NCBI RefSeq assembly: GCF_004217045.1
Contig: NZ_SGXM01000001.1
Coordinates: 1,488,001 to 1,552,000 of the forward strand
DNA: 64,000 bases
Direction: 5' to 3'
From: Cupriavidus agavae
GTDB lineage: Bacteria; Pseudomonadota; Gammaproteobacteria; Burkholderiales; Burkholderiaceae
This document shows, piece after piece, positions 48,940-61,164 of the stretch. Numbering within the stretch: the first letter of the stretch is position 1; every line of letters begins with the position of its first letter. The position numbers and the translations under genes are program-made. A model generated the notes under the pieces. That model had not been told where the DNA came from and searched no databases. It saw nothing but the letters and a program-made list of their open reading frames with translations.

Positions 48940-49863
48940 TCATGACGCTTCGACCGAAAGCGAGGCCAGGCGACGGTGATACTGCGCGGCAAGCGTGACC
49001 GTTTGCGTGTGCACGGCCACGGTGTTTTCGATCTGGTTGCCGTAGCCGCCGGCCATCGCCACGGCGATCGGCAGCCGGCGCGCGGCGGCGAAATCGAACA
49101 CCATCGCGTCACGCCGCGCCAGCCCGGCCATGGTCAGGCGCAGCCGGCCGAGCCGGTCGTCCTCGTGCGGATCGGCGCCGGCCAGATAGATCAGCAGATC
49201 GGGGGCGAAGCGTGCCGCGAGCGTGTCGAGCGCCCCGGCCAGCGCGGCGGCGTAGGTGGCGTCGTCGCAGCCGTCGGGCAGGCCCACGTCGAGATCGCTC
49301 GCCTCCTTGCGGAACGGATAGTTCTTCTCGCCGTGCAGCGAGAGCGTGAAGATGCTCGGGTCGTCGCGCAGGATCGACGCGGTGCCGTTGCCCTGGTGCA
49401 CGTCGAGATCGATCACGGCCACGCGGCGCACGGCGCCATCGCGCTGCAGGCGCCGCGCCGCGATGGCCGCATCGTTGAACACGCAGAAGCCGCCGCCCTT
49501 GTCGGCATAGGCGTGATGGGTGCCGCCGGCCAGGTTCACGGCGATGCCCTGCGTCAGCGCCGCCTGGCACGCGGCAATCGTCGCCCCGGCGGAGCGCCGC
49601 GAACGCTCCACCATCTCGGGCGACCACGGAAATCCGATCTCCCGCTGGCGTGCCGCGTCGAGCTGACCTGACGAGACATCGGCGATGTAGGCCGCCGTAT
49701 GGGCCAGCGCCAGATCGCTGTCATCGGCGCGCGGCGCTTCGTGCAGCGTCAGCCCCGGCACCTCGCGCACCACGGCGTCGCGCAGCATGCTGTACTTGCG
49801 CATCGGAAACCGATGGCCAGCAGGCAGCGGCAAGACGAAATGGTCGGCGTAGAAGGCAAACAT
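48940..49863 (-). CDS. Histone-deacetylase-family zinc amidohydrolase
   Basis: A 307-residue HDAC-like deacetylase: [26 protein letters not shown] (catalytic His pair), [16 protein letters not shown] (zinc-binding Asp and His), and [19 protein letters not shown] (second zinc Asp) with GGYGN near the end. In bacteria such enzymes deacetylate acetoin-related, polyamine or protein substrates; which applies here is unknown. It is separated from the thioesterase gene by 131 bp. Confidence 0.92.
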
Positions 49864-50310
49864 GGAATCGGGGGCGTGATCGGGCAGCGCGGCCAGGGTG
49901 ACGCCTTCGCACCATTCCCCGACCGGGCAGTCAGCGATGGTAGCACCGTCGCGACGGGGCTGAGAATTTCCGCTTCAAACGGGTGTTTCTCCCGCATCGC
50001 ACCACGATGCCGACTCGGTATTTACCCTTGCCGGTCGCCCTTACGTGGAGCAACCTGCCCTTGCCAGCCCCTTCCATGGCCTATTTTTTGTGCGATGCAC
50101 AAAAACCGCTTGACACCCATCGTCGTTTTCTTAGAATTGGAATTGTTGCGGCGCATCAAAGCCCCGGACCGGAGCCCCGGCCGAAGGCGGTGCCGACAAA
50201 CATACGGATATACGCTCGGGCTAGCCAGGCTCCAATCAGTCATGGCTCTGACATCTGGGCGGCTTAATTTCTATTTGCTAGACCTTGAAGTTTCACCACT
50301 GGAGACCAGC
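49864..50310. other. Upstream region of phaP1 without a gene
   Basis: A 447-bp region between the HDAC-like gene (minus) and phaP1 (plus). No credible gene was found; the long frame extending into it from phaP1 reads Arg-rich, atypical sequence. It holds the phaP1 promoter (see separate entry). The 173 bp between the promoter and the ATG would be a long mRNA leader. Confidence 0.6.
50085..50137 (+). promoter_or_regulatory. phaP1 promoter with adjoining palindrome (candidate PhaR operator)
   Basis: TTGACA (50110-50115) and TAGAAT (50132-50137) are 16 bp apart, close to consensus. Just upstream, 50085-50105 is an inverted repeat with 9-bp arms TTTTTGTGC and GCACAAAAA around GAT. In C. necator the repressor PhaR is reported to bind near the -35 of phaP1 at GCA-rich, AT-tailed repeats; GCACAAAAACCG here is close to that form. 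The PhaR link is inference. Confidence 0.65.
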
Positions 50311-50889
50311 ATGATTCTGACCCCGGAACAAGTTGCAGCCGCACAAAAAGCCAACCTCGAGACCCTGTTCGGTCTGACCTCGAAAGCCTTCGAAGGCGTG
50401 GAGAAGCTGGTCGAGCTGAACCTGCAAGTGGTCAAGGCCACGTTCGCCGAGAACGTGGACAACGCCAAGAAGGCGCTGTCCGCCAAGGATGCCCAGGAAC
50501 TGCTGGCCATCCAGGCCACCCTGGTGCAACCGGTTGCCGAAAAGACCCTGGCCTACACCCGCCACCTGTATGAAATCGCTTCGGAAACCCAAAGCGAGTT
50601 CACCAAGGTAGCCGAAGCCCAACTGGCCGAAGGCACGAAGAACGTCCAGGCCCTGGTCGAGAACTTCGCCAAGAACGCCCCGGCCGGCTCGGAATCGACC
50701 GTCGCCATCGTGAAGTCGGCCATCTCGGCCGCCAACAACGCGTACGAGTCGGTCCAGAAGGCCACCAAGCAAGCCGTTGAAATGGCCGAAAGCAACTTCC
50801 AGGCTGCCGCCACGGCTGCTTCGAAGGCTGCCCAGCAAGCCAGCGCCACGGCTCGCACCGCCACCAAGAAGCCCACGGCCGCTGCCTAA
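50311..50889 (+). CDS. phaP1: PhaP1-type phasin (PHB granule surface protein)
   Basis: A 192-residue amphipathic helical phasin, the same length as C. necator PhaP1 and reading very like it: [20 protein letters not shown], then [13 protein letters not shown] and [20 protein letters not shown], with an Ala/Lys/Thr-rich end. It coats polyhydroxybutyrate granules and controls their number and size. ATG 50311 has GGAGA 6 bp upstream. The codon choice is strongly biased to GC-ending, high-expression codons, as expected for an abundant protein. Monocistronic. Confidence 0.97.
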
Positions 50890-51059
50890 GCTTCTGCACC
50901 CGTAGTACTCCAGCGCACCGGCTCCGGCCGGTCCGTTGGCCGAGCGCCCTCCCCCGTCGATCAGGACGCTCCGCCAACGGCGGCGACCCCCGCAGCACCC
51001 CTCTCGCCCGCACCGTACCGCTGTCTCCTCGGTGCCGATCCAAAAGGTATCGATTCAAA

Positions 51060-51094
51060 CCCGGCCCCTGCATGCAGGCAGCCGGGATTTTTTT
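51060..51094 (+). terminator. Probable phaP1 terminator
   Basis: CCCGGC (51060-51065), an inner CCTGCATGCAGG palindrome, and GCCGGG (51081-51086) are followed by ATTTTTTT. It lies 171 bp after the phaP1 stop. Confidence 0.75.
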
Positions 51095-51157
51095 CGTCCC
51101 GGCCTTCGCGGATGCGACAAAAGCACGGCGGTTAATTGAATTAATTCGAGGCAGAAG

Positions 51158-51181
51158 AAAACCCGCCAAGGGGCGGGTTTT
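51158..51181 (-). terminator. Terminator of the pyruvate dehydrogenase cluster
   Basis: A 10-bp stem, AAAACCCGCC and GGCGGGTTTT, with loop AAGG. On the minus strand it lies 23 bp beyond the lpdA stop, ending in TTTT. It is symmetrical and may also act on the plus strand. Confidence 0.88.
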
Positions 51182-51204
51182 CCAACGACACAAACCATCA
51201 AGGC

Positions 51205-52998
51205 TTATCGCTTGCGCGGCGGCGGCACGTCCGTGCACACCCCCTCGTAGATTTCGGCAGCCATGCCGATCGATTCGCCGAGCGTCGGGTGCGGGTGGAT
51301 GGTCTTGCCGATATCCACCGCGTCCGCGCCCATTTCGATCGCAAGGCAGACTTCGCTGATCAGGTCGCCGGCGTGGGTGCCGACGATGCCGCCGCCGATG
51401 ATCCGGTGCGTTTCCTCATCGAAAATCAGCTTGGTGAAGCCTTCGTCGCGGCCGTTGGCGATGGCGCGGCCCGACGCGGCCCACGGGAACGTGCCCTTCC
51501 CGTACTTGATGCCCTGTGCCTTGCACTGCTCTTCTGTCAGGCCGGCCCAAGCCACTTCCGGATCGGTGTAGGCCACCGACGGGATCTGCTTGACGTCGAA
51601 GTACGCCTTCTCGCCGTGGGCAGCTTCGGCGGCCACGTGGGCCTCATGCACAGCCTTGTGGGCCAGCATCGGCTGGCCGACGATGTCGCCGATGGCGAAG
51701 ATATGCGGCACGTTGGTGCGCAGTTGCTTGTCGACCTCGATGAAGCCACGGTCGGTCACGGCCACGCCGGCCTTCTCGGCGCCGATTTTCTTGCCGTTGG
51801 GCGTGCGGCCCACCGACACCAGCACCGCGTCGTAGCGCACCGGCTCGGCGGGAGCGCCCTCGCCTTCGAACTTGACGTAGATGCCGTCCGGCTTGGCTTC
51901 CACGCCAACCGTCTTGGTCTTGAGCATCACGTTGTCAAAGCGATGCTTGTTCATCTTGTCCCAGACCTTGACGAGGTCGCGGTCCGCGCCCTGCATCAGG
52001 CCGTCGAGCATTTCCACCACGTCGATGCGGGCGCCCAGCGTGCTGTACACCGTGGCCATTTCCAGGCCGATGATGCCGCCGCCGATGACCAGCATCTTGT
52101 TCGGGATATCGCGCAGTTCCAGCGCGCCCGTCGAGTCGAAAATGCGCGGATCTTCAGGGATGAACGGCAGCTTCACGGCCTGGCTGCCAGCCGCGATGAT
52201 CGCCTTTTCGAAGCGGATCACGGTCTTCTTGCCCGTGGTCGCCTTGGCATCGCCCTCGGTTTCCTGCACTTCGAGGTGGTTCGGGTCCAGGAACGTGCCG
52301 ATGCCGCGCACGGTCTGCACCTTGCGCGCCTTGGCCATGCCGGCCAGGCCGCCGGTCAGCTTGTTGACCACGCTTTCCTTGTAGTGGCGCAGGCCGTCCA
52401 GGTCGATCTTGGCTTCGCCGAACAGGATGCCGTGCGCGGCCAGCGCCTTGGCCTCGTCGATCACGGCCGCGTTGTGCAGCAGCGCCTTCGACGGGATGCA
52501 GCCCACGTTCAGGCAGACGCCGCCCAGCGTGCCGTAGCGCTCCACCAGCACCGTGTTCATGCCGAGATCGGCCGCGCGGAACGCCGCCGAGTAGCCGCCG
52601 GGGCCGGCGCCGAGCACGAGCATGTCGCACTGGATATCGGCCGACCCGCTGTGCTTGCCAGCGGCCGGTGCCGGGGCGGGAGCGGGGGCTGCCGCCGCCG
52701 GCGCCGCGGCCGGAGCCGGTGCTGCCGCAGGGGCAGGGGCCGGTGCCGGGGCAGCGGCCGCGCCGCCTTCCACCGTACAGATCACGGTGCCCTTGGCTAC
52801 CTTGTCCCCGACCTTGACCTTGACGTCCACGACCTTGCCGGCCGACGACGACGGCACTTCCATGCTGGCCTTGTCGCTCTCCAGCACGATCAGCGACTGC
52901 TCTTCCTCGACCGTATCGCCGGCCTTGACCAGCACTTCGATCACTTCCACCGCGTCGAAATCGCCGATATCCGGCACCTTGACTTCGATCACACTCAT
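51205..52998 (-). CDS. lpdA: Dihydrolipoamide dehydrogenase (E3) with an N-terminal lipoyl domain
   Basis: A 597-residue E3. Residues 1-80 form a lipoyl domain with its lipoyl-Lys K43 (ESDKAS); an Ala/Pro linker (about 80-113) leads to the flavoprotein domain with FAD motif GAGPGG (130-135), redox pair C162/C167 in [11 protein letters not shown], and the interface domain containing HPHPTLGE near the C terminus, with the active-site His. The lipoyl-E3 fusion is known from Cupriavidus PdhL. ATG 52998 has AGGAGG upstream. It is the last gene of the aceE-aceF-BPH-lpdA group. Confidence 0.97.
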
Positions 52999-53037
52999 GC
53001 TTTCCTCCTGGGATGCGCGCCCTGCCCGCCTCGGGGT

Positions 53038-53667
53038 TCAGGCCGCGCCGTCGTTGTTGGTTGCCGAGCCATCCGGCTGCCGGGGCTGCTGGAATTCCGT
53101 CTGGAGCTTCACCGTATGCACGTCGATCGGGCCTGCCGAGCTTTTGTCGAACTCGATGCCGGCATCCACCCCCACCCGCGCGATCTCGCCGGCATCCATG
53201 CCCGGCAGGTCATAGACCGCGTGCATCGCGCCCAGCGCATAGTTGCGCCCCGAGCCGATACCCCAGAAACGGTCGAACGAAAACACCTCGCGGTAGGAAT
53301 AGACGCCATAGATGCCGCCCGGATTGGCGATCAGGCAGACGATCTGCGATGACTCGTAGGGGTCGTCGTCGTCTTCCTTGGTGTTGATGAAATACTCGTT
53401 CTTGAGCTTTTCATGGACCTTGAGGAAGGTTCGGAACACCTCGTCGCGGGTCATCAGCCGGCACTCTTCGCCCATGCCCGTCAGCAGCGCGCGCATGACC
53501 GGAAAATGGGCCGTGGTGCCCGCCAGCGCGACAAAGCTCTCGCCCACGGGAATCACCTTCTGGTTGCGCTCGTAGGCACGCGACAGCCGCGTATCGCCGA
53601 ACGTCACCAGCGCATCGGCTGCGATCGCCACCTCGTCACCCTTACGTACGACAACGCAGGTCGTCAT
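53038..53667 (-). CDS. Betaproteobacterial proteasome homologue (BPH), Ntn-hydrolase peptidase
   Basis: A 209-residue Ntn-hydrolase of the proteasome beta-subunit/HslV fold. After Met removal the N terminus is T1-T2-C3-V; D17 (AIAADAL) and a Lys in ERNQKVI (K36, shifted by three from HslV K33) complete the catalytic set. The core SFVALAGTTAHF and ALGAMHAVYDLPGMDAGEIARVGVDAGIEF fit the BPH subclass known from Betaproteobacteria, including Cupriavidus. It assembles into double rings in studied cases. No ATPase partner gene is adjacent. A ribosome site GGAGG precedes ATG 53667, and the gene is inside the pdh cluster between aceF and lpdA. Confidence 0.9.
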   Translation of the reverse strand: MTTCVVVRKGDEVAIAADALVTFGDTRLSRAYERNQKVIPVGESFVALAGTTAHFPVMRALLTGMGEECRLMTRDEVFRTFLKVHEKLKNEYFINTKEDDDDPYESSQIVCLIANPGGIYGVYSYREVFSFDRFWGIGSGRNYALGAMHAVYDLPGMDAGEIARVGVDAGIEFDKSSAGPIDVHTVKLQTEFQQPRQPDGSATNNDGAA

Positions 53668-53727
53668 GGCTCGCCTCCGTTACTTTGCTTCTCGGCGCCC
53701 CGGCATGCCGGGGCGCGTTGCGGTTGC

Positions 53728-55386
53728 TTAGAGCAGGATGCGGCGGAAGTCCGCCAGCAGCGCCGCAAAGTACGTGTTGAAGCGCGCAGCCTCGGCGCCG
53801 TCGATCACGCGGTGATCCCACGACAGCGACAGCGGCAGCGTCAGGCGCGGCGCAAACTGCTTGCCGTCCCAGACCGGCTTCATGTACGACTTGCACACGC
53901 CCATGATGGCCACTTCCGGCGCATTGATGATCGGCGTGAAGTACGTGCCGCCGATGCCGCCCAGCGACGAGATCGAGAAGCAGCCGCCCTGCATCTGGTC
54001 CGGCTTCAGCTTGCCGTCGCGGGCCAGCTTGGCCAGTTCGCCCATTTCCTGGCTGATCTCCAGCACGCCCTTCTTGTCGGCGTCCTTGATGACCGGCACG
54101 ACCAGGCCGTTCGGGGTGTCGGCGGCAAAGCCGATGTTGAAGTACTTCTTCAGCACCAGGTTGTCGCCGTCCAGCGAGGCGTTGAAGTTCGGGAACTTCT
54201 TGAGCGCCGCCACGGTGGCCTTGATCATGAATGCCAGCATCGTGATCTTGATGCCGGCCTTCTCGTTTTCCTTGTTCATCTGCACGCGGAAGGCTTCCAG
54301 CTCGGTGATGTCCGCCTCGTCGCAGTTGGTGACGTGGGGGATCAGCACCCAGTTGCGGTGCAGGTTGGCGCCCGAGATCTTCTTGATGCGCGACAGCGGC
54401 TTGGACTCCACCTCGCCGAAGCGCGTGAAATCGACCTTCGGCCACGGCAGCAGGTCCAGGCCCACGCCCGAACCGCCACCAGCGGCGGCGGCCGGCGCGG
54501 CGCTCTGGCCGCTCATCACGCCCTTGACGAAGCCCTGCACGTCCTGCTGGGTGATGCGGCCCTTCGGACCGGTACCGGGCACGCGCGCCACATCGACGCC
54601 GAGTTCGCGGGCGAACTTGCGCACGGACGGGCTGGCGTGGGCGGCCTTGCCGGTCACGCCCTGGGCCGGCGCGGCGGCCGGGGCCGCGGCGGGAGCCGGT
54701 GCCGGGGCGGCGGGAGCGGGAGCCGGGGCGGCGGGGGCAGGAGCCGGGGCGGCCGGCGCGGGGGCCGGTGCGGAAGCGGCGGCGGCACCTGCGGCGCCGG
54801 CAGCTTCCAGAATCAGGATCAGCGTACCCTGGGCCACGTTGTCGCCCACCTTGACCTTGACTTCCTTGACCGTGCCGCCCTGCGGCGCGGGCACGTCCAT
54901 CGTGGCCTTGTCCGATTCCAGCGTCACCAGCGCGTCTTCGGCGTTGATGGTGTCGCCCGGCTTCACGTGGACTTCGATGACGGGTACGGCGTCGTAGTCG
55001 CCGATATCGGGGACCTTGACCTCGACGGTGCCGCCACCAGCAGGCGCGGCAGCCGGCGCGGGCGCTGGTGCAGCAGCAGCCGGAGCCGGAGCCGCCGCGG
55101 CAGGCGCCGGGGCGGGAGCGGCAGCGGGCGCCGGGGCGCTGGCGCCAGCGGGCTCCAGCATCACGAGGATCGAGCCCTCGGCCACGTTGTCGCCTACCTT
55201 GACCTTGACTTCCTTGACCGTGCCGCCCTGCGGCGACGGCACGTCCATCGTGGCCTTGTCCGATTCCAGCGTCACCAGCGCGTCTTCCGCGTTGATGGTA
55301 TCGCCCGGCTTCACATGCACTTCGATGACGGGAACGGCGTCATAGTCGCCGATATCCGGCACCTTGATTTCAATCGCTTGACTCAT
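53728..55386 (-). CDS. aceF: Dihydrolipoamide acetyltransferase (E2) of pyruvate dehydrogenase
   Basis: A 552-residue E2. Two lipoyl domains at about 1-80 and 118-195 carry lipoyl lysines K44 and K160, both in [10 protein letters not shown]. Ala/Pro linkers join them to the E1/E3-binding peripheral domain ([33 protein letters not shown]) and the acyltransferase domain, with the catalytic His and Asp in [16 protein letters not shown]. The two lipoyl domains are almost identical in protein and about 90% identical in DNA. ATG 55386 has AGGAGAG. The stop is 61 bp before the BPH start. Confidence 0.97.
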
Positions 55387-55594
55387 TCAGTGTCTCTCCT
55401 GGGCAGCCGGCACCCTGGTTGTTGGCGACGTGGCGACAAACGGACAAACGCAATCGGCGAGGTTACTCCGGCCTCACGCATCTGTCACGCTGCCGCGCAT
55501 CACCAGCGGCCGCGGGCGCCGCCGGACCAGCCGGGGGCACCCGCGGCACGGCGGCATGCCGTGCTGCGGGGGGTTCAGTCGTGCAAGTCCGGGG

Positions 55595-58282
55595 TCAGAC
55601 CGACATCGGGTTCGGCTTGTTCGGGTCGAGGTTGTACTTCTTGATGGCTTCCGCCACCTTCTCGCGGCCGATCGCGCCCTCGTCGGCCAGCGCCTTCAGC
55701 GCGGCCACCGTCACCCAGTTGCGGTCCACTTCGAAGAAGTGGCGCAGCTTCTCGCGGGTGTCCGAGCGGCCGAAGCCGTCGGTACCCAGCACCACGTAGC
55801 GGCGCGGCACGAACGGACGGATCTGTTCGGCGAACGCGCGCACGTAGTCGGTCGAGGCAATCACCGGACCGCGCACGCCCTTGAGCTTCTGGGCGACGAA
55901 CGATTCGCGCGGCGTCTCGGTCGGGTGCAGCAGGTTGAAGCGCTCGGTGGCCTGGCCTTCGCGGGCCAGTTCGGTGAAGCTCGGGCAGCTCCAGATGTCC
56001 GATTCCACGCCCCAGTCCTTCTTGAGCATGTCGGCGGCGGCAATCACCTCGCGGAAGATCGTGCCCGAACCCAGCAGCTGCACGCGCGGGGCGTTGCTGT
56101 TTTCCACGCCCTTGCGGAACTGGTACATGCCCTTGACGATATCCTTCTCCGAGCCGGCCGGCATTTCCGGGTGCTCGTAGTTCTCGTTCATCACCGTCAG
56201 GTAGTAGTACACGTCTTCCTGCTCCGCGTACATGCGGCGCAGGCCGTCCTGCATGATCACGGCCAGTTCGTACTGGAACGTCGGGTCGTACGAGATGCAG
56301 TTCGGGATGGCGGCGTGGAACACATGCGAGTGGCCGTCCTCGTGCTGCAGGCCCTCGCCGTTCAGCGTGGTCCGGCCCGAGGTACCGCCCAGCAGGAAGC
56401 CGCGCGAGCGCATGTCGGCGGCGGCCCAGCACAGGTCGCCGATACGCTGGATACCGAACATCGAGTAGTAGATGTAGAACGGGATCATCTGCACGCCGTG
56501 CGTCGAGTACGACGTGGCGGCGGCGATCCAGTCACACATGGCGCCGGCTTCGTTGATGCCTTCCTGCAGCACCTGGCCAGTCTGCGATTCCTTGTAGAAC
56601 ATCAGCTGGTCGTGGTCTTCCGGCACGTACTTCTGGCCCTGCTGGTTCCAGATGCCGACCTGGCGGAACAGCCCTTCCATGCCGAAGGTGCGCGACTCGT
56701 CCGGGACGATGGGCACCACGTGCTTGCCAACCTGCTTGTCCTTGAGCAGCGTGTTCAGGATCCGGACGAAGGCCATCGTGGTGGACACTTCGCGGCCCTC
56801 GCCGGTGGCCTTGAGCAGCGCGTCGAACGCCGACAGCTCGGGCACCTTGAGCGCCTCGGCCTTCTGGCGGCGCGTGGGCAGGTAGCCGCCCAGGTTCATG
56901 CGCGCCTGGCGCATGTATTCCAGTTCCTTCGAGCCTTCCTCGAAGGTCAGGTACGGCACTTCCTCGAGCTTGTCGTCCGGCACCGGGATGCTGAACTGGT
57001 CGCGGAACGCGCGGATGGCGTCCACCGGCATCTTCTTCTGCTGGTGGGCCACGTTCATGGCCTGGCCGGCATCGCCCATGCCATAGCCCTTGATGGTCTT
57101 GGCCAGGATCAGCGTCGGCTGGCCCTTGTGCTCGCTGGCGGCCTTGTACGCGGCGTAGACCTTGTGCGGATCATGGCCGCCGCGGTTCAGGCGCCAGATG
57201 TCGTCGTCGGACCAGTCGGCCACCATGGCCTTCAGTTCCGGGGTGTTGAAGAAGTGCTCGCGCACGTAGGCGCCGTCCTTGGCCTTGAAGGTCTGGTATT
57301 CGCCGTCCACGGCGTCCATCATCCGCTTCATCAGCAGGCCCTTGGTGTCGCGCGCCAGCAGCTGGTCCCAGCGGCTGCCCCACACCACCTTGATCACGTT
57401 CCAGCCCGAGCCGCGGAATTCCGATTCCAGCTCCTGGATGATCTTGCCGTTGCCGCGCACCGGGCCGTCCAGGCGCTGCAGGTTGCAGTTGATCACGAAG
57501 ACCAGGTTGTCCAGCTTCTCGCGGCCGGCCATGCCGATCGCGCCCAGCGATTCCGGTTCGTCGGTCTCGCCGTCGCCCAGGAACGCCCAGACCTTGCGGT
57601 CGCCGGCCTTGACCAGGCCGCGGCTGTCCAGGTACTTCATGAAGCGGGCCTGGTAGATGGCCATGATCGGGCCCAGGCCCATCGACACGGTCGGGAACTG
57701 CCAGAAATCCGGCATCAGCCACGGGTGCGGGTACGACGAGATGCCCTTGCCGTCCACCTCCTGGCGGAAGTTGTCCAGTTGCTCGGGCGTCAGGCGGCCC
57801 AGCAGGAAGGCGCGCGAGTACACGCCCGGAGCCGAATGGCCCTGCACGAAGACCAGGTCGCCGCCGCTCTGTTCCGACGGGGCGCGCCAGAAGTGGTTGT
57901 AGCCCACGTCATAGAGCGTGGCCGCCGAGGCGAACGACGAGATATGGCCGCCCACGTTGGTGTGCTTGTTGGCGCGCAGCACCATGGCCATGGCGTTCCA
58001 GCGCGTGTACGAGCGGATGCGGTGCTCCACGTCCTGGTCGCCGGGAATGCGGGCCTGCTGCTCCACCGGAATCGTGTTGATGTACGGCGTCTCGGCGTGG
58101 AACGGCTGCGTCACGCCATTCACGCGTGCGTATTCGATCTGCTTGTCGATCAGGAAGGCCGCGCGCTCGGCGCCTTCGGCGTTCAGGACGCCCTGCAGGG
58201 CATCCAGCCACTCGTGGGTTTCCTGGGGATCGGCGTCGTTGGCGCTGCTGGCGCCGAGAATCTGCTCTGGTACAGCGGACAT
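55595..58282 (-). CDS. aceE: Pyruvate dehydrogenase E1 component (homodimeric)
   Basis: An 895-residue homodimeric E1 typical of Gammaproteobacteria and Betaproteobacteria. The thiamine diphosphate motif starts WAFLGDGETDEPESLGAIGMAGREKLDNLVFVINCNLQRLDGPVRGNGKIIQ, and DQLMFYKESQTGQ, DGEGLQHEDGHSHVFHAAIPNCISYDPTF and the terminal YNLDPNKPNPMSV also fit AceE. ATG 58282 has AGGAGA at 6 bp. It is followed by aceF, BPH and lpdA, with a 208-bp gap before aceF. It lies divergent from a PAS histidine kinase. Confidence 0.98.
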   Translation of the reverse strand: MSAVPEQILGASSANDADPQETHEWLDALQGVLNAEGAERAAFLIDKQIEYARVNGVTQPFHAETPYINTIPVEQQARIPGDQDVEHRIRSYTRWNAMAMVLRANKHTNVGGHISSFASAATLYDVGYNHFWRAPSEQSGGDLVFVQGHSAPGVYSRAFLLGRLTPEQLDNFRQEVDGKGISSYPHPWLMPDFWQFPTVSMGLGPIMAIYQARFMKYLDSRGLVKAGDRKVWAFLGDGETDEPESLGAIGMAGREKLDNLVFVINCNLQRLDGPVRGNGKIIQELESEFRGSGWNVIKVVWGSRWDQLLARDTKGLLMKRMMDAVDGEYQTFKAKDGAYVREHFFNTPELKAMVADWSDDDIWRLNRGGHDPHKVYAAYKAASEHKGQPTLILAKTIKGYGMGDAGQAMNVAHQQKKMPVDAIRAFRDQFSIPVPDDKLEEVPYLTFEEGSKELEYMRQARMNLGGYLPTRRQKAEALKVPELSAFDALLKATGEGREVSTTMAFVRILNTLLKDKQVGKHVVPIVPDESRTFGMEGLFRQVGIWNQQGQKYVPEDHDQLMFYKESQTGQVLQEGINEAGAMCDWIAAATSYSTHGVQMIPFYIYYSMFGIQRIGDLCWAAADMRSRGFLLGGTSGRTTLNGEGLQHEDGHSHVFHAAIPNCISYDPTFQYELAVIMQDGLRRMYAEQEDVYYYLTVMNENYEHPEMPAGSEKDIVKGMYQFRKGVENSNAPRVQLLGSGTIFREVIAAADMLKKDWGVESDIWSCPSFTELAREGQATERFNLLHPTETPRESFVAQKLKGVRGPVIASTDYVRAFAEQIRPFVPRRYVVLGTDGFGRSDTREKLRHFFEVDRNWVTVAALKALADEGAIGREKVAEAIKKYNLDPNKPNPMSV

Positions 58283-58352
58283 GGACTGTCTCCTGGTGAA
58301 TTCCGGTGGCGGCAAACGCGTGGCGCCCGCCCGCACTCTTTCGGTCGAAGCG

Positions 58353-58382
58353 ATTCTATGGAAGCACAGCAACGGCTGACAA
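58353..58382 (-). promoter_or_regulatory. Candidate aceE promoter
   Basis: On the minus strand, TTGTCA (58382-58377), an 18-bp spacer and TAGAAT (58358-58353) lie 71 bp before the aceE ATG. On the plus strand a TATAAT at 58413-58418 could serve the divergent kinase gene, though its -35 is weak. Confidence 0.55.
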
Positions 58383-58572
58383 GCGAAATTTTCAGATTAC
58401 GAATTCCTTTTTTATAATGCGGAATATTGCGGCAGTGCACCAGAAACGGCGCCGCACGCGGGGTTCCGCGCCGGCCCGGCCTGCCGCCAAGCCCTTGTGG
58501 CGTATAGGCGGTTTCCCCAAGCGACGCACCGCAATAAAGCCGATACACTGCCCGGTCAGTCGTCAATCCCTT

Positions 58573-61164
58573 ATGCAGTTCTTCGAACGAATCCTCTCCG
58601 GCCTGCGCTCGGCCATTTTGCCCCCTGATGCCGCCAGCACCGTGAGCGAGCCCGCCCGGCCCGCCCACGCCGCCCGCATGGGCGGCGCGCCCGCCGATCA
58701 TGGCGACCCCGGCGAGCACGTGGACGCCATCGAGACGCTGGCCCCGGCGCCGCGCCGGCTGTGGATCCTGCGCTGGCGCAACCTGGTGGCGACGAGCTGG
58801 TTCATGTTCATCCCGCTGGTGGCCATCGTGCTGTTCACGGTGGCGATGGGCGTCATCCTGTGGTCGCTGCACGAGACCGAGCGCCAGCAGCAGCGCGACG
58901 CGCTATACCGCGACGCCGCCTGGGCGCAGCAGCGCGTGCGGCTCTCGCTGCTCAGCAACCAGGACCAGATGGCCTCACTGGCGCGCGACATTGCCGCCGC
59001 GCAGCTCGACCAGGGCGCCTACCGCACCGCCGCCCAGGAAATCCTGCGCGAGAACCCGGAAATCGTCTTCATCAACTGGCTCGATGCCACGCGCAAGGGC
59101 CGGTGGTCGCTGCCGTCCACCTCCGAGTTTGCCGGCCGCCTGCGGGAAATGGTGGACAAGCCGCTGGAACCGGAAGTTCTCGACACCTTCGACGCCGCCC
59201 GCGAGACCCAGCGCGTGGTCTATTCCCGCCCGCTGACCAACGACCGCGGCGACAGCTTCATGCTGATGGAAGTGCCGATCGTGCGCGACAACGAGTTCCT
59301 GGGCACGCTCGGCGCGCTGTACTCGATCAACGGCATCCTGACCCACCTGCTGCCGCCCGAGCTGACCGAGCGCTACCGCTTCTCGCTGATCGACAAGAAC
59401 AACCAGACCCGCGCCAGCACGTCGGTGCGGCCGGTGCCGGGCAATGCGCTGTCCTACGAAGTGCTGCTTGATCCACCTGGCCACTCGCTCTCGCTGCGCG
59501 CCGACGCCTATCCGCCGCCGTCGAACCTGCCCAACAACATGCTGCTGTGGCTGGTGGTGGGGCTGTCGTGCTTCCTGCTCTGGAGCCTGTGGAGCATGTG
59601 GCGGCACACCAGCCGCCGCTCCGAGGCGCAGCGCGCGCTGCTGGCCGAGACATCGTTCCGGCGCGCGATGGAAAACTCGATGCTGATCGGCCTGCGGGCG
59701 CTCGATCTGAACGGCCGCATCACCTATGTGAACCCGGCCTTCTGCCGCATGACGGGTTGGTCCGAGGCCGAGCTGGTGGGCCGGGTGCCGCCCTTCCCCT
59801 ACTGGCCGCCCAACGACCAGCAGGAGATGCAGAAGCAGATCGACCTGACGCTGCAGGGCAAATCGCCGGCCACCGGCTATGAAATGCGCGTGATGCGCCG
59901 CGACGGCAGCAGCTTCTTCGCGCGGATGTACGTCTCGCCGCTGGTCGACAGCCGGGGCCGCCACACGGGCTGGATGAGTTCGATGACGGACATCACCGAG
60001 CCCAAGCGCGCCCGCGAGGAACTGGCCGCCGCCCACGACCGCTTCACCACGGTGCTGGAAAGCCTGGACGCCGCCGTGTCCGTGCTGGCCACCGACAAGG
60101 CCGAACTGCTGTTCGCCAACCGCTACTACCGCCAGTTGTTCGGCTGGGAGGCGGAGGGCCACCTGAAGCTGGCCGGCGACGATTTCGACAAGGACCAGAT
60201 GTCGAGCGACAACACCGACTTCGTCGATGCCTACGCCGGCCTGCCCGCCTCGGAACTGATGCCGTACGCGTCTGACGCGCGCGAGGTGTTCGTGCCGGAC
60301 ATGCAGAAATGGTTCGAAGTGCGCCGCCGCTACATCCAGTGGGTGGACGGGCATCTGGCGCAGATGCAGATCGCCACCGACATCACCGTCCGCAAGGCGG
60401 CCGAGGAAATGGCGCGCCAGCACGAGGAGCGCATCCAGTTCACGAGCCGGCTGACCACGATGGGCGAAATGGCGTCGTCGCTGGCCCACGAGCTGAACCA
60501 GCCGCTGGCCGCCATCAACAACTACTGCATGGGCGCCGTGGCGCGCCTGCACTCGGGCCGCAGCACGCCCGAAGACCTGATTCCGGTACTGGAGAAGACC
60601 TCGGCGCAGGCCGTGCGCGCCGGCACCATCATCAGCCGGATCCGCGGCTTCGTGAAGCGCAGCCAGCCGCAGCGCCGGGAAGCCGCGCTGCACGACATCG
60701 TGGCCGACGCCGTGGGCCTGGCCGACCTGGAGGCCACGCGCCGCCGCGTGACCATCCTGACGCGCCTGCCGGCACCGCCGGTCATGCTCTACGTCGATCC
60801 GGTGCTGATCGAACAGGTGCTGGTCAACCTGCTCAAGAACGCCGTGGAGGCCATGGCCGGCCTGCCCGCGATGCGCGCCACGGGCGTGGTACGGCTGCAT
60901 GCCCGCATCGAAAACGTTGAGTTCGGTCAATGTTGCTGCATCGACGTGATCGACCAGGGCCCGGGCGTGGACGAGGCCACCAAGGAGCGGCTGTTCGAGC
61001 CGTTCTTCAGTACCAAGTCCGACGGCATGGGCATGGGCCTGAACATCTGCCGCTCCATCATCGAATCGCACCAGGGCCGGCTCTGGGTCGAAAACAATGT
61101 GGACGGGATCGGCTGTACGTTTAAAATCACCCTGCCGCTGCAGCCGGCGCTGCCCGAACAGTAA
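58573..61164 (+). CDS. PAS-domain sensor histidine kinase (FixL/TodS-like), partner of the FixJ-type regulator
   Basis: An 863-residue kinase. Two membrane segments (FIPLVAIVLFTVAMGVILW near residue 80 and MLLWLVVGLSCFLLWSLWSMW near residue 325) enclose a periplasmic sensing region of about 225 residues with no domain I can name. Two PAS domains follow (about 360-480 and 485-600, the first with ITYVNPAFCRMTGW), then the H box MASSLAHELNQPLAAINNYC, N box LLKNAVEAM, G1 DQGPGVDE and G2 GMGMGLNICRSIIE. ATG 58573 was chosen because the upstream frame is low-quality. The response regulator starts 138 bp downstream. Divergent from aceE. Confidence 0.92.
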   Translation: MQFFERILSGLRSAILPPDAASTVSEPARPAHAARMGGAPADHGDPGEHVDAIETLAPAPRRLWILRWRNLVATSWFMFIPLVAIVLFTVAMGVILWSLHETERQQQRDALYRDAAWAQQRVRLSLLSNQDQMASLARDIAAAQLDQGAYRTAAQEILRENPEIVFINWLDATRKGRWSLPSTSEFAGRLREMVDKPLEPEVLDTFDAARETQRVVYSRPLTNDRGDSFMLMEVPIVRDNEFLGTLGALYSINGILTHLLPPELTERYRFSLIDKNNQTRASTSVRPVPGNALSYEVLLDPPGHSLSLRADAYPPPSNLPNNMLLWLVVGLSCFLLWSLWSMWRHTSRRSEAQRALLAETSFRRAMENSMLIGLRALDLNGRITYVNPAFCRMTGWSEAELVGRVPPFPYWPPNDQQEMQKQIDLTLQGKSPATGYEMRVMRRDGSSFFARMYVSPLVDSRGRHTGWMSSMTDITEPKRAREELAAAHDRFTTVLESLDAAVSVLATDKAELLFANRYYRQLFGWEAEGHLKLAGDDFDKDQMSSDNTDFVDAYAGLPASELMPYASDAREVFVPDMQKWFEVRRRYIQWVDGHLAQMQIATDITVRKAAEEMARQHEERIQFTSRLTTMGEMASSLAHELNQPLAAINNYCMGAVARLHSGRSTPEDLIPVLEKTSAQAVRAGTIISRIRGFVKRSQPQRREAALHDIVADAVGLADLEATRRRVTILTRLPAPPVMLYVDPVLIEQVLVNLLKNAVEAMAGLPAMRATGVVRLHARIENVEFGQCCCIDVIDQGPGVDEATKERLFEPFFSTKSDGMGMGLNICRSIIESHQGRLWVENNVDGIGCTFKITLPLQPALPEQ

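Follow-up and report, generated by a model that had tools for sequence, protein, structure and literature searches.

The window analysed here, the whole 64,000-nucleotide stretch of Cupriavidus agavae DNA, carries on its minus strand a pyruvate dehydrogenase (pdh) cluster in which the third gene encodes a betaproteobacterial proteasome homologue (BPH) of 209 residues, a protein reportedly first named in a 2008 paper. The BPH gene (53038..53667) is an intact ORF with an ATG start. Upstream lie aceE for pyruvate dehydrogenase E1 (55595..58282; TIGR00759 over cut-off; the start at 58282 is our choice, the listed ORF starting at 58372) and aceF for dihydrolipoyllysine acetyltransferase, E2 (53728..55386; TIGR01348 over cut-off). 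Downstream is lpdA for dihydrolipoyl dehydrogenase, E3 (51205..52998; TIGR01350 over cut-off on residues 124–582), the product of which has an N-terminal lipoyl domain, with residues 2–123 matching the lipoyl part of TIGR01348. The gaps are 60 nt between aceF and BPH and 39 nt between BPH and lpdA, and Shine-Dalgarno-like sequences precede the ATG of both BPH (GGAGG, 53674..53678) and lpdA (AGGAGG, 53004..53009), all on the minus strand. This is the arrangement that an earlier sequence-only reading had described, with BPH between aceF and lpdA on the same strand, at short distances and with good ribosome sites, and the present analysis confirms it. There is no ATPase gene beside BPH, the same-strand neighbours in the cluster being aceE, aceF, and lpdA, and hslU is not found among the genes adjacent to 53038–53667.

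A consensus scan of 50900–58700 gave one minus-strand promoter candidate, a sigma-70-like site upstream of aceE (58353..58382, 10 of 12 consensus positions), and neither promoter nor terminator candidates on that strand between aceE and lpdA. Scans of this kind are not evidence of function (three promoter-like sites on both strands together against 0.9 expected, S.D. 1.2; three terminator-like sites, none on the minus strand, against 5.5 expected); nothing in them speaks against a single transcript, and we infer that BPH would be co-transcribed with the pdh genes. Plus-strand promoter-like sites at 58389–58418 lie next to the aceE promoter candidate, and the gene of a large PAS-domain sensor histidine kinase (58306–61164, plus strand; PAS and HATPase_c over cut-off) diverges from aceE. 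Convergent to lpdA is a phasin gene (49699–50889, plus strand; PF09361 on residues 210–308 of the listed ORF), the true start of which is probably well within that ORF; the minus-strand ORF opposite to it (50293–50838) had no match in the NCBIfam scan.

The protein matches Pfam PF00227 above cut-off and no NCBIfam model at E ≤ 1e-10. When searched against the PDB with phmmer, its nearest match is a solved BPH, ahead of HslV, Anbu or 20S. The best hit, 5ovu (8.6e-115; by our count 170 identities over 190 aligned residues), is the BPH of Cupriavidus metallidurans (Rmet_1198), which is alike in sequence, active-site residues, and acidic pore loop and is stated, in the portion of PMC5777263 drawn on here, to lie in the same operon with three PDC genes; it comes from another species, and the C-terminal tail of the window protein past residue 191 falls outside the alignment. 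The BPH of Thiobacillus denitrificans (Tbd_1847; 5ovs/5ovt, 1.5e-36) shares family, active site, and acidic pore loop but matches at 128.9 bits as against 384.4 for 5ovu and, unlike the window gene, stands beside argG (PMC5777263, in part). One more sequence, an HslV-type chain (8e-06), completes the three distinct ones matched at E ≤ 0.001. The source genome has just two PF00227 matches, BPH and an HslV-type gene elsewhere (G000:C3:283871-284389), the latter matching the family better. Both are of the proteasome family, yet the HslV, with a mature N terminus of TT, is a separate gene, whereas BPH, without hslU alongside, has a long acidic pore loop; the residues through which HslV contacts HslU are reportedly not conserved in BPH (PMC5777263, same portion).

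The window protein has an N-terminal Thr without a propeptide, Asp17, Lys at mature position 36 (36/37), and the oxyanion-hole Gly, with residue roles (Thr as nucleophile, Asp17, Lys, and the Gly) taken from the text of PMC5777263 available to us. These residues were compared across 225 BPH sequences, of which 145 come from the order survey described below and 80 are named ones, the best 80 of 186 relatives (216 distinct in all). Every sequence has Asp17, Lys36, and Gly49; position 1 carries Thr in 222 and Ser in three, and at the active-site position 138 there is Ser in 216, Ala in seven, and Thr in two. Together with the 5ovu and PF00227 matches, this comparison bears out the earlier identification of a 209-residue BPH with Thr1, Asp17, and a conserved Lys. 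The elongated acidic pore loop is present (EYFINTKEDDDDPYESSQ; NTKEDDDD in the window protein), and the corresponding 18-residue stretch has a mean of 5.94 Asp/Glu over the 16 loci of the order survey at which pdh genes flank BPH. Three genes within Burkholderiales (L204, L206, and L207) start ATG-Ser, and therefore Ser would serve as nucleophile there; L204 lies in the arginine-gene context, and L206 and L207, outside it, are each the second BPH copy of their genome (G115 and G148). Ser1 has been described for BPH proteins outside Betaproteobacteria (PMC5777263, in part). By the NG86 method, the window compared with 12 hand-picked relatives gave a median dN/dS of 0.156 for BPH (11 of 12 yielding a value) and of 0.138, 0.126, and 0.100 for lpdA, aceF, and aceE (12 of 12 each), so BPH is under constraint, though a little less so than its neighbours.

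To place the locus in a wider frame, 399 Burkholderiales genomes of at least 90% completeness were surveyed, and BPH was matched in 143 of them at 145 loci (142 of 392 when contamination was also held to at most 5%). Neighbourhoods were taken at all 145 loci with about 7 kb per side where the contig allows (about 1.5 kb only at 10 of the 16 pdh loci); neighbours were clustered without bias, and one representative per main cluster was named by Pfam or NCBIfam. PDH genes flank BPH at 16 of the 145 loci and other contexts account for 129. Within three genes of BPH, hslO (Hsp33) is found at 52 loci, argG at 44, yajQ alone at one, and none of these at 32. Fifteen of those 32 have an Hsp15 (hslR)-like gene for an S4-domain protein, the representative of which scores below the NCBIfam cut-off (93.1 versus 148 bits). 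An hslO and/or hslR-like gene thus lies within three genes at 67 of 145 loci (L113–L242), the commonest context, and at 46 loci hslO is directly downstream of BPH on the same strand. Seventeen loci have some other context, or 18 with the yajQ-alone locus added; these small counts are rough, as the gene caller was home-made, and seven of the 17 other plus yajQ loci are bounded by contig ends or by the fetched stretch.

The arginine-type loci (L180–L227) run argD-argF-argG-(ppnP)-BPH-yajQ, with yajQ (DUF520) usually after BPH and ppnP often before it; ArgD and YajQ are the names that we take to belong to their Pfam families. At 38 loci argG and yajQ occur together. The pairing of BPH with Hsp33 is on record for Laribacter hongkongensis (PMC5777263, in part).

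The pdh arrangement itself is conserved. In a second set, the best 80 of 186 relatives and hence biased to near kin (73 distinct proteins, mostly from Cupriavidus, Ralstonia, Pandoraea, Collimonas, and Noviherbaspirillum), aceF and lpdA adjoin BPH at 80 of 80 loci. When these are pooled with the 16 pdh loci from the survey across Burkholderiales (one protein being common to both sets), the order aceF-BPH-lpdA holds at 96 of 96 loci, including those best 80 of 186, with gaps of −4 to 178 nt between aceF and BPH and of −10 to 105 nt between BPH and lpdA. It is kept across seven family codes and at BPH identities to the window as low as 51–55%. A search by tblastn for a mobile origin gave no match in phage (E ≤ 1e-3) or plasmid (E ≤ 1e-5) collections.

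Two trees describe how these contexts are distributed. In a quick tree of the 145 BPH rows with one wrong-frame HslV row, one change is needed for pdh, seven for hslO, three for arg, and 11 for all groups together. In a careful tree of 60 of the 145 rows (all 16 pdh rows, every third of the rest, and the Ser1 rows) with HslV, the pdh loci form one side of a single branch (one change, support 96/94), as do the arg loci (one change, 100/99); the heat-shock-locus label takes two changes. The HslV branch has length 10 in this tree; contexts were read without a root, and none is taken as ancestral. Loci of one clade largely share their context, clades differ in it, and the pdh placement fits one event that would have been inherited vertically over the seven family codes.

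Some members of the genus have the operon without BPH. BPH is matched in 50 of 60 genomes of the window's genus, or in 46 of the 54 with completeness of at least 90% and contamination of no more than 5%. In six of the eight unmatched ones (G462, G470, G524, G538, G614, and G616) aceF is followed directly by lpdA at 24–64 nt from its stop, and BPH had no match at E ≤ 0.001 in those six. The other two, G453 and G486, were not scored as losses, their contigs breaking within lpdA, and neither were G611 and G613, which are 78 and 54% complete and in which lpdA is unmatched too. G612 (L268) shows frame changes in both BPH and lpdA at high identity, which are more likely a sequencing fault than decay, and was counted as a match. 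A quick tree of LpdA puts five of the seven BPH-less genus rows, representing six genomes, in one group (support 84), with the other two placed beside them without resolution, and gathers the 31 BPH-bearing Cupriavidus-type rows into another (98). The tree would allow a single loss in the genus; since the absences may trace to one event, they speak for dispensability only within a single subclade. Across the wider family BPH is matched in 55 of 200 genomes, or 54 without G522, the weak match of which (33%, residues 79–149) was not counted as BPH. In three BPH-less genomes of the same family (loci L252, L253, and L254) the aceF-lpdA gap is about 255–303 nt and holds inverted-repeat-like sequence, CTTTTCTTTG ... 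CAAAGAAAAG.

The placement of BPH inside a pdh operon is already in print, in Fuchs et al. (PMC5777263), where both the observation and a first test of its interpretation as a PDH link are found in the portion that we use. Of other papers, as far as the sections available extend, PMC8665760 reports no function-suggesting genomic context for its new homologues, and PMC8138137 and PMC6213913 merely cite BPH. The PDH genes of C. necator H16 carry the tags H16_A1374, A1375, and A1377 and are highly induced in the growth phase (PMC3734047, in part), and neither H16_A1376 nor a proteasome is mentioned in the main text, to the extent available, of PMC3734047, PMC4008487 or PMC9166356. The skipped number would fit a gene between E2 and E3, and this gene may well be BPH, induced together with its neighbours; such co-induction sits uneasily with a heading in PMC5777263, as available, that terms BPH genes constitutively expressed.

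What, then, does the barrel do at this site? Fuchs et al. (PMC5777263, in part) proposed that BPH is a stress protease of general scope, corresponding, as an ATP-independent enzyme, to the free 20S proteasome; its hslO/hslR, arg, and pdh sites would all be stress-linked. The heat-shock genes near 67 of 145 loci, with hslO so often directly downstream, agree with this proposal, but the pdh and arg operons are chiefly housekeeping metabolism, and in the same portion of that paper carbonylation patterns of extracts were unaltered on incubation with BPH, and BPH did not make up for the proteases that a multi-protease E. coli mutant lacks. We regard this explanation as possible but doubtful.

A narrower role, in which BPH in this clade is a quality-control peptidase dedicated to PDH, degrading damaged or unassembled E2/E3 or lipoyl-domain fragments with its dose matched by co-transcription, would suit the invariant order and short gaps at the 96 pdh loci (including the best 80 of 186 relatives). 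It is close to the suggestion of the sequence-only reading that BPH is linked with how lipoylated PDH subunits are assembled or turned over, and it fares poorly. In pull-downs from C. metallidurans neither PDC subunits nor HslU bound (given as "data not shown" in PMC5777263, in part), and the unaltered carbonylation tells against it as well. The catalytic residues and an indel-free acidic pore-loop region are common to the hslO, arg, and other contexts; 129 of the 145 loci in the sampled order lie away from pdh genes; and six genomes of the same genus have an unbroken aceF-lpdA junction without BPH. Of the observations named beforehand as counting against the link, unrelated contexts in most genomes are what the survey found, and a promoter of BPH's own is not, the consensus scan giving none here. 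We consider a dedicated role improbable. Slightly less probable again is a variant in which the pdh-captured BPH would be a peptidase that clears PDH fragments or lipoyl peptides at a matched dose, with contacts too transient for pull-down, while other clades would couple the barrel to Hsp33/Hsp15 or to arginine synthesis. That the ORF is a chance or decayed one, as the longer opposite-strand ORFs overlapping it in the window might hint, has next to no likelihood and is refuted by the strong homology to solved structures, Asp17 and Lys36 in 225 of 225 sequences, and the median dN/dS of BPH.

The reading that we favour, and think probable, is that of a known BPH as third gene of an aceE-aceF-BPH-lpdA operon, whose pdh site is an old insertion and not a PDH-specific partnership. 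The window protein is the orthologue of the characterized C. metallidurans BPH and, by analogy with the solved proteins, most likely an ATP-independent, self-compartmentalizing threonine peptidase. Like them it would form a homo-tetradecameric double ring (7+7) with Thr1 sites inside, no propeptide, and an acidic pore loop; 14-mers in solution are reported for BPH, the tetradecameric double ring for the C. metallidurans and T. denitrificans proteins, and Met removal for the former (PMC5777263, in part). Removal of Met would expose Thr1, the ring would, without an ATPase, admit only small or unfolded polypeptides, and cleavage would follow the proteasome mechanism with Thr1 as nucleophile together with Lys36 and Asp17. 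In the available portion of PMC5777263, BPH bound epoxomicin and MG132 and showed no activity on casein or the peptides tried; because no protein-substrate activity was seen there, the peptidase role is drawn from inhibitor binding and the active site, and BPH may serve in clearing peptides.

The gene most likely entered an actively expressed housekeeping operon once, long ago, and has been inherited vertically since; such a site would supply co-expression and imply no PDH-specific partnership. Taken together, the clade-bound contexts, shared residues and loop, BPH-less operons, and lack of PDC binding make co-expression without a dedicated partnership the most economical account; BPH would then work independently of PDH, and a PDH-specific role is unlikely. 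Against this, the pdh order kept over deep divergence could reflect functional coupling, and the pull-downs, cited as data not shown in the portion used, could have missed transient protease-substrate contacts. The arg and hslO contexts are likewise kept over long spans, and every context might be meaningful.

The observation at this locus is thus correct and already known, and the functional link to PDH is unsupported. Both the tally of contexts and the BPH-less genomes within the genus argue against PDH as the starting point for understanding BPH function. They show where to look: at the hslO/hslR-like neighbours, a context that is perhaps a better lead to BPH function than PDH, and at naturally BPH-less strains.
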